Assembly (NCBI GenBank): GCA_944326115.1
Contig: CALVCQ010000001.1
Span: 62,001 to 126,000 of the forward strand
Length of the DNA stretch: 64,000 bases
Origin: Candidatus Gastranaerophilales bacterium
Lineage (GTDB): Bacteria; Cyanobacteriota; Vampirovibrionia; Gastranaerophilales; Gastranaerophilaceae
Direction of reading: 5' to 3'
The notes under the pieces were generated by a model that saw nothing but the letters and a program-made list of their open reading frames with translations, was not told the origin of the DNA and did not search any database. Made by a program: the position numbers and the translations under genes. This document shows, piece after piece, positions 16,878 through 30,696 of the stretch. Within the stretch, counting starts at the first letter, position 1; each line of letters starts with the position of its first letter.

Positions 16878-17036
16878 AGTCTCCCTTTGCCTTTTCAAAT
16901 CTGTGTAAAATATTTTAAATACAGCTTAATATATTCAATTATATCCTAAAATAAATTGTTTGAAGAAAATTATTAAAGAAATTTAAGTCTGTTTTTATTT
17001 TTAGTGATATACTATATTTGTTGATTGTTTCCCTGC

Positions 17037-17108
17037 AGCGGCATCGTCTAGGGGTCAGGATAGCAGATTCTCATTCTGTTGACACGGGTTCAAATCCCGT
17101 TGCCGCCG
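17037..17108 (+). tRNA. tRNA-Glu (anticodon CTC)
   Basis: The segment folds as a tRNA: acceptor AGCGGCA with TGCCGCC, D-arm GTCT...GGAT, anticodon stem GCAGA/TCTGT with loop TTCTCAT (anticodon CTC, reads GAG), and T-arm ACGGG-TTCAAAT-CCCGT. The first acceptor pair would be A1-C72, a mismatch, while the other six pair. CCA is not encoded. A tandem array copying its 3' end and an inverted piece of its T-arm follows at once. Confidence 0.88.
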
Positions 17109-17376
17109 TGCTTTTAAAATATATTCATTTGAACCCGTGTCACACGGGCTAATCTGAAATCGCAAGCTGACGCTCGCTCAGTCCCGTTGCCGCCGTGTTT
17201 TTAAAATATATTCATTTGAACCCGTGTCACACGGACTAATCTGAAATCGCAAGCTGACGCTCGCTCAGTCCCGTTGCCGCCGTGCTTTTAAAATATATTC
17301 ATTTGAACCCGTGTCATACACGGACTAATCGGAAATCGCAAGCAGACGCTCGCTCAGTCCCGTTGCCGCCGTGTTT
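17096..17376 (+). repeat. Tandem array of 87-89 bp units attached to the 3' end of tRNA-Glu
   Basis: Units start at 17096, 17183 and 17270 (periods 87, 87, 89), with a partial fourth from 17359. Each begins with the last part of the tRNA (CCCGTTGCCGCCGTG), continues with an AT-rich stretch, then a 16-nt inverted copy of the tRNA T-arm (ATTTGAACCCGTGTCA, antisense to 17081-17096), a CCCGTG/CACGGG hairpin, and a palindromic block with GCAAGC...GCTCGC. Small differences between units (C/T, G/A, a 2-nt insertion) show the array is not freshly made. Confidence 0.9.
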
Positions 17377-17423
17377 TTAACTTTCGATTTGTCATATACA
17401 ATTATATAAAATTGGCATTCCTT

Positions 17424-28390: not shown

Positions 28391-28500
28391 TTTCATATTA
28401 TGTCTATGATTCAATAAAAATACACGGTTCGGAGTCTTGTTAAAACAGGAATGCCGGCTGTACATGTAAACATTTAACTTTTAACGGTTGAAAAAATTGT

Positions 28501-28682
28501 GGGCTGCTAGCTCAGGTGGCCAGAAAGCAAGAGCTTTCGAAGTTAGATAAAGCACGATGCGTGCGCTCTAACACTGGGATGAAAAAATTGTGGGCTGCTA
28601 GCTCAGGTGGCCAGAAAGCAAGAGCTTTCGAAGTTAGATAAAGCACGATGCGTGCGCTCTAACACTGGGATGAAAAAATTGT
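28501..28682 (+). repeat. Two identical 91-bp units attached to the 5' end of tRNA-Ile
   Basis: Units 28501-28591 and 28592-28682 are identical, and the true tRNA follows in the same phase at 28683. Each has the first 19 nt of the tRNA (GGGCTGCTAGCTCAGGTGG), a unique stretch with hairpin GAAAGC-AAGA-GCTTTC, a 14-nt inverted copy of the tRNA D-arm/anticodon flank (GCGTGCGCTCTAAC, antisense to 28701-28714), and the leader TGAAAAAATTGT that also precedes the array. The partial copies cannot fold as tRNAs. Confidence 0.92.
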
Positions 28683-28756
<74 letters not shown>

Positions 28757-28873: not shown

Positions 28874-29086
28874 CTAACTATTTTCAGAGTTCGAGTCCAT
28901 TTTGGCGTCTAATTCTTTACAAAAATCTGGTGAAAACACATTCTGTATAAACTCTACAGGGATTTCTTTTTCTGCAATTCTTGCAAATACTGAGTAAAGT
29001 CTAGCCCAAAGCAAACTTGTTTCTTCATATGAGTATTCTTTGTCATCAAATGTGATTATTACATTTACAACTTTTCTAATTTTCAT
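28874..29086 (-). CDS. Small hypothetical protein (70 residues)
   Basis: AAAAGGCGG lies just upstream of the ATG. The product begins MKIRKVVNVIITFDDKEYSY and continues with a helix containing EETSLLWARLYSVFARIAEK. It has no signal or membrane segment. No family recognised. The ribosome site and balanced composition make it a likely real gene. Confidence 0.6.
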   Translation of the reverse strand: MKIRKVVNVIITFDDKEYSYEETSLLWARLYSVFARIAEKEIPVEFIQNVFSPDFCKELDAKMDSNSENS

Positions 29087-30301: not shown

Positions 30302-30535
30302 CGGATTTCCGAACGGGCAAAGCCCGGGGAGCGAGACACGAAATGAGCAGAAGCGAAAGCGGAGCGAATGGGAGTGTCGAGCAGGAAGGAAATCCAAGAC
30401 AGCGGATTTCCGAACGGGCAAAGCCCGGGGAGCGAGACACGAAATGAGCAGAAGCGAAAGCGGAGCGAATGGGAGTGTCGAGCAGGAAGGAAATCCAAGA
30501 CAGCGGATTTCCGAACGGGTGAAACCCGGGGCGAG
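30301..30535 (+). repeat. 101-bp tandem repeat array at the efp stop codon
   Basis: Two near-identical units, 30301-30401 and 30402-30502, and a shortened third to about 30535. Each starts GCGGATTTCCGAACGGG, carries CAAAGCCCGGGG and a GCGA-rich core (AGCGAGACACGAAATGAGCA), and ends AAGGAAATCCAAGACA, so GGATTTCC and GGAAATCC form an inverted pair at the unit ends. The first base is the G of the efp stop codon. The family recurs after flgG and, decayed, after flgI. The third unit's tail (GCGAGCGTCAACTT) resembles the palindromic block of the tRNA-Glu array. Confidence 0.9.
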
Positions 30536-30696
30536 CGTCAACTTTGCTCAGCAAGCTATAAAATTGTTTCACAAAACTATCAATAGTTTTTACATGTATT
30601 ATTGATTAGTAAATAATTAAAAACAGACATAAAAAAGAAGCAATTTGCTTGATACCGGACAAAAGGAAAATTATCAGGTCATAAAAGGACAGAACT

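Follow-up and report, generated by a model that had tools for sequence, protein, structure and literature searches.

RtT repeats are known from a few Escherichia coli tRNA operons, and the 3' ends of tRNA genes are classical attachment sites. Each of the 178-bp tyrT/tyrV repeats of E. coli contained a direct copy of tRNA positions 67-85 (t67-85) and an inverted copy of t68-77. The lysQ/lysV units ran from a trailer with a terminator-like hairpin through GATTCGAACCTGC (inverted T-arm), GCAGGTTTGAG and an insert to ATCCTGCACGACCCACCA, and the insert core (C/G)CCGAAGGGCGA was common to the Tyr, Lys and Arg units. The RtT model of Rfam (RF00391) matched the Tyr and Lys units. RtT-like units with one common insert core were observed at lysT-lysQ, lysV and argV-argQ (loci L357, L360 and L361), and the lysQ unit was found at 80% or more of its length in 3205 of 5426 E. 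coli genomes. As to REP hairpins, TnpA-REP acts on single-stranded hairpins and recognises one strand only (PMC8266576).

In the literature that we have searched, mostly without subscription papers, arrays at tRNA ends were not described in Gastranaerophilales or in connection with REP/BIME. The present analysis widened the observation from a single locus to a class: the array that follows tRNA-Glu(CTC) belongs to a class of palindromic repeat arrays that occur at tRNA ends across the genome.

The arrays at tRNA-Glu(CTC) and tRNA-Ile(GAT)

The window, that is the whole 64,000-nt stretch of Candidatus Gastranaerophilales DNA analysed here, carries the features listed in Table 1. TRF described the Glu array with a period of 87, 3.3 copies and 95% matches, the first repeat phase beginning within the tRNA-Glu(CTC) gene, and this bore out the three units and the partial one reported by the initial annotation. 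The units differed from each other by point changes, and no ORF of at least 120 aa was present between 16898 and 17424. The piece copied inverted in the units was TGACACGGGTTCAAAT, 16 nt of the T-arm region. It had been placed at 17081-17096, and the correct coordinates are 17080-17095. The copy was exact in all three units, and Glu arrays in five further species also held the inverted piece. The two palindromes claimed for each unit, CCCGTG-TCA-CACGGG and the hairpin ATCGCAAGC..GCTCGCTCAG, were both present. The argument that the inverted piece is not explained by a mere tandem duplication was upheld.

Table 1. Positions of the array features in the window (t, position in the tRNA)
Feature	Position	Strand	Basis or remark
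tRNA-Glu(CTC), intact gene	17037..17108	+	Infernal with Rfam tRNA model, 55.5 bits; ARAGORN: 17036-17109
3' tandem array, 3.3 units of 87-89 bp	17095..17380	+	TRF; direct-repeat families D1/D2
Glu array unit 1	17095-17181		87 bp
Glu array unit 2	17182-17268		87 bp
Glu array unit 3	17269-17357		89 bp
Glu array partial unit	17358-17380		
Second copy of tRNA-Glu 3' end (t59-72)	17182..17195	+	14-nt exact own-tRNA match at +74
Third copy of tRNA-Glu 3' end (t59-72)	17269..17282	+	own-tRNA match at +161
Fourth copy of tRNA-Glu 3' end, then native trailer	17358..17371	+	own-tRNA match at +250
Inverted T-arm piece (t44-59), Glu unit 1	17127..17142	-	16 nt, 100% complementary to 17080-17095
Inverted T-arm piece, Glu unit 2	17214..17229	-	100% complementary to 17080-17095
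Inverted T-arm piece, Glu unit 3	17301..17316	-	100% complementary to 17080-17095
Insert hairpin E2, Glu unit 1, fused to T-stem 3' strand	17158..17182	+	strict E2 pattern
Insert hairpin E2, Glu unit 2	17245..17269	+	strict E2 pattern
Insert hairpin E2, Glu unit 3	17334..17358	+	strict E2 pattern
tRNA-Ile(GAT), intact, with mirror-image 5' array	28683..28756	+	Rfam tRNA model, 65.3 bits
5' tandem array of tRNA-Ile, two 91-bp units	28489..28701	+	TRF, 100% matches; direct t1-19 at -182 and -91
Inverted t19-32 of tRNA-Ile, unit 1	28559..28572	-	inverted match at -124
Inverted t19-32 of tRNA-Ile, unit 2	28650..28663	-	inverted match at -33

The similar layout that had been noticed on the 5' side of tRNA-Ile was confirmed, with a 91-bp period, direct t1-19 and inverted t19-32. 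Each unit is made up of a 12-nt leader, t1-19 and a palindromic insert of ~60 nt.

Past the tRNA-Ile terminator, at 28880-28915, we have observed a tRNA T-arm-like remnant (GAGTTCGAGTCCATTTTGG), which together with the sequence following it is near-identical to a stretch past the terminator of tRNA-Ser(GGA) (locus L109). These remnants represent a second type of repeat module linked to tRNAs. A 101-bp tandem repeat at 30302-30541 directly follows the gene for elongation factor P; the family to which it belongs is dispersed, with ~25 other places in this genome.

Order of unit parts and orientation of the hairpin inserts

The 3' units followed one order, namely t~60-76, trailer, inverted t~45-60, T-stem 5' strand, hairpin insert and again t~60-76. 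The 5' units were their mirror image and ran from the leader through t1-~14, the hairpin insert, a D/anticodon-arm strand and its inverted copy back to the leader. Array units measured ~84-130 bp and contained no gene; not all parts were present everywhere, some units with the insert hairpin E1 having no inverted arm. For the 5' units that lack E1, 42 distances were measured across ten tRNA species of differing sequence, and 35 of them fell between 85 and 94 bp. Both the direct and the inverted parts agreed with the host's own tRNA: an A/G variant of tRNA-Glu was mirrored in every Glu array having an inverted arm, and the Phe units tracked the host acceptor variants GCCACGTT, GCCGCGTT and GCCGCAAT. 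The Phe 5' insert was homologous across three genera, a conservation that could possibly reflect selection for a function. A covariation check of the Phe units found no pair changed on both sides, which speaks neither for nor against a structure.

Hairpin inserts were common to different tRNAs. The hairpins of the family E1 (ACTCTGCCG-hairpin-GAGAGG) are dispersed; their ends stay constant and their inner arms covary. E1 occupied 63 places in this genome and 7-86 per genome over 23 genomes of the genus, with no match in the reversed-pattern control. In every fusion of E1 with tRNA pieces, it was the ACTCTGCC end that adjoined the tRNA-terminal strand. The 5'-side cases were all "+" (13/13) and the 3'-side cases all "-" (19/19), without exception over nine tRNA species (Lys, Met, Val, Pro, Thr, Arg, Glu, Gln and Phe), the 32 cases spanning related species and thus not being independent events. 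No fixed target tetranucleotide was seen before E1. With a strict pattern, E2, the insert of the Glu array, was recovered from six genomes of the genus, where the matches lay in Glu, Thr and Lys 3' units. In units of Glu, Thr, Lys and Pro it was joined to the 3' strand of the T-stem. A relaxed search returned 16 "+" hits on 3' sides, three "-" on 5' sides and two "-" on 3' sides; of the latter, one was part of a neighbouring tRNA-Thr array and the other a weak match. The head of E1 is ACTCTGCC and the end of E2 is GCTCAG, and neither has a conserved GTAG head.

This mirrored orientation rule concerns DNA strands; one RNA cannot meet it on both sides of a gene. Replication direction as the cause of insert orientation was set aside, since one tRNA can bear arrays on both sides (Phe in loci L151 and L157).

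Distribution of the arrays and comparison with described systems

The genome analysed comprises 2.15 Mb in 92 contigs, is 96% complete and has 40 tRNA-like genes. We have counted as a self-match at least 11 nt shared with the own tRNA within 300 bp, the control being the flank compared with another tRNA. Such matches accompanied 22/40 tRNA-like genes, against 0-4 (mean 1.6) with swapped tRNAs, and inverted matches accompanied 10 of the 40, against 0-2. Chance is therefore excluded as the source of these self-derived repeats, as the initial annotation had argued from the two arrays of the window. The repeats derived either from the T-arm, on the 3' side, or in mirrored form from the D-arm, on the 5' side. 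In E. coli, which was sampled by regions (54 tRNA genes), direct self-matches were found at 11/54 and inverted ones at 6/54 genes, nearly all in the Tyr, Lys and Arg groups.

Exact matches to tRNA-Glu among named genomes came mostly from Candidatus Gastranaerophilales MAGs. In sister species, orthologous tRNAs showed the same layout, and units had been gained, lost or changed in number; at a given tRNA, related species either had the array or lacked it. Contig ends of this genome clustered at tRNA genes, 16/40 tRNA-like genes lying within 300 bp of one (1.0 expected), as if the arrays had broken the assembly, and unit counts from drafts are thus minimum values. The arrays provide a practical reason for assembly breaks at tRNA genes in Gastranaerophilales genomes. 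Some short contig stretches were made of array units, such as the tRNA-Phe units at C7:2270.

The RtT repeats are among the closest described systems. Like RtT, the Glu array consists of tandem units with the tRNA 3' end placed after the tRNA. As in E. coli, the units also contain a remnant of the T-arm, an inverted piece of that arm and a palindromic insert, which is joined on at the T-loop. The order of parts in the lysQ/lysV units was that of the Glu array. Unlike RtT, the Gastranaerophilales arrays had no sequence-family match: the RF00391 covariance model gave no match above the gathering score in the window or in nine array loci, and around the Glu array none came up even with E allowed to reach 5. 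Rfam as a whole returned only tRNA in the same sequences, besides weak chance matches. The E. coli insert core had 0 matches in Gastranaerophilales loci and none in phages. By analogy of layout, the arrays would thus work like RtT repeats, although by the sequence model they are not members of that family.

E1 resembles REP/BIME elements as a set of dispersed palindromes with conserved ends and covarying arms. The palindromes are likewise clustered in tandem, and RAYT genes with inverted GTAG REPs adjoin some arrays. The arrays differ in that E1 and E2 lack the GTAG (or CGTC) head tag, GTAG being present only on a separate REP beside RAYT, in that this genome has no cognate RAYT, and in that a tRNA arm belongs to the unit. 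With the tRNA fragments left by integrative elements they share partial tRNA 3' ends beside an intact tRNA, but the arrays occur also at 5' ends, possess inverted arms and hairpin inserts, and have no integrase or cargo.

The RtT-like grammar found here suggests that a DNA process driven by hairpins acts at tRNA genes far more generally than is known. We only tentatively propose that RtT repeats and Gastranaerophilales arrays may belong together in a single general class of bacterial mobile cassettes, palindromic, strand-symmetric and targeting tRNA arms, in which the inverted arm may guide the cassette to its own tRNA.

Origin of the arrays and the candidate enzyme

We consider it somewhat probable that the arrays arise at the DNA level, by strand-specific insertion of palindromic cassettes into tRNA arms followed by tandem multiplication. 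A unit would be a second copy of one tRNA end (t~60-76 plus trailer on the 3' side, leader plus t1-~14 on the 5' side), with a hairpin cassette (E1, E2 or a related one) replacing or invading the loop region of its T-arm or D-arm. Next to the cassette, the inner strand of the arm would be present as an inverted copy, and the intact tRNA would be kept in place. Such non-autonomous, REP/BIME-like hairpin cassettes may enter tRNA arms single-stranded and in one fixed orientation, in a way resembling the action of HUH (Y1/RAYT-type) transposases on REP hairpins. Insertion would make or exploit a partial tRNA duplication of ~23-31 bp, whereby the tRNA gene would survive; snap-back in repair synthesis would leave the inverted arm; and the direct repeats would then permit tandem gain and clean loss of units. 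We infer the enzyme, the order of these events and the snap-back. We have reconstructed no insertion event next to a site that is empty and otherwise identical.

The main rival is template switching alone, which the initial annotation had listed among its explanations. Without any transposase, replication hairpins at the tRNA would cause polymerase slippage and a template switch at the T- or D-arm, and tandem expansion would follow. An inverted piece followed by a re-copied end is what snap-back and return to the template are expected to give, the pieces fit the host tRNA variant in the Glu arrays with an inverted arm and in the Phe arrays, and the mirror symmetry of 5' and 3' arrays suits hairpins on either side. 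This process may thus explain the inverted arm, but it does not account for the same foreign hairpins (E1, E2) occurring at fixed orientation in many tRNAs, nor for one insert core in the E. coli Tyr, Lys and Arg units, and we regard it as an unlikely explanation of the arrays as a whole.

A role at the RNA level, also suggested initially, appears more doubtful still. Here the array would be transcribed with the tRNA and its inverted arm would pair with it, as an attenuator, a sponge or a released small RNA, comparable to RtT, an Rfam family annotated as sRNA. In predicted folds of a read-through transcript of tRNA-Glu plus one unit, all cloverleaf pair probabilities dropped to ~0, and no terminator-like site was found between tRNA-Glu and its array. 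Pairing is thus chemically possible, and a regulatory effect would be so if read-through were common and folding were at equilibrium; the tracking of host tRNAs by the inverted arms also fits. Several observations weigh against such a role as the chief explanation. The 5' layout is mirrored with the inserts reversed, so that 5' and 3' arrays make no common RNA, the Gln, Phe and E. coli Lys units lie past a terminator-like hairpin, and close relatives can lack the array at the same tRNA. An antisense-RNA role is less likely because of this mirror symmetry and the position of several arrays beyond terminators.

Repeated integration at a tRNA 3' end was another initial proposal; taken as scars of phage or ICE integration by tyrosine integrases, it is a very improbable source. 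The 3' end of a tRNA, a classical attachment site, is indeed repeated in the Glu array, but no integrase-type element lies between tRNA-Glu and an attR, the units there being only 87-89 bp. Geneless units of ~84-130 bp, with inserts in the arms of partial copies, and an inverted arm and hairpin inserts foreign to attL/attR do not fit, and the mirrored 5' arrays largely refute this reading. Fragments of tRNA genes should accordingly not be read automatically as integrase scars. An assembly artefact has next to no likelihood: the 16 tRNA-like genes near contig ends indicate that unit numbers may have been collapsed or cut, yet assemblies made independently for many species show the same layout, as does the finished chromosome of E. 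coli, and the units vary by point changes.

For cassette insertion, the RAYT transposase is a candidate agent. One-strand recognition by TnpA-REP (PMC8266576) would fit the orientation rule of the inserts. RAYT is only a candidate because no RAYT/Y1 gene was found in 15/23 genomes of the genus, including this one (96% complete), because in other genera RAYT was close to a tRNA in only 1/27 loci, and because E1 and E2 lack the GTAG tag. RAYT beside tRNAs as a family-wide rule was accordingly unsupported outside the genus. The RAYT's own REPs (GTAGGTTGGG...) were unlike E1 and E2.

RAYT-type Y1 transposase genes (NCBIfam NF047646, E 4e-38) were present in 8/23 genomes of the genus. Five of these eight loci lay within 800 bp of a tRNA (Glu, Phe, Arg, Arg and Ser), and two further ones had tRNA-like fragments nearby. 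At locus L281 of genome G002, a RAYT gene flanked by inverted GTAG REPs sits inside the loop of an E1 hairpin, and this hairpin in turn occupies the T-loop of a tRNA-Phe 3' unit, the palindromes being nested in palindromes.

A longer dispersed repeat (AGTCAACTGAC...CCCACTCAGACAA; loci L251, L256, L280 and others) carried an identical E1 copy in many places, and in genome G012 it was observed on both sides of a RAYT gene.
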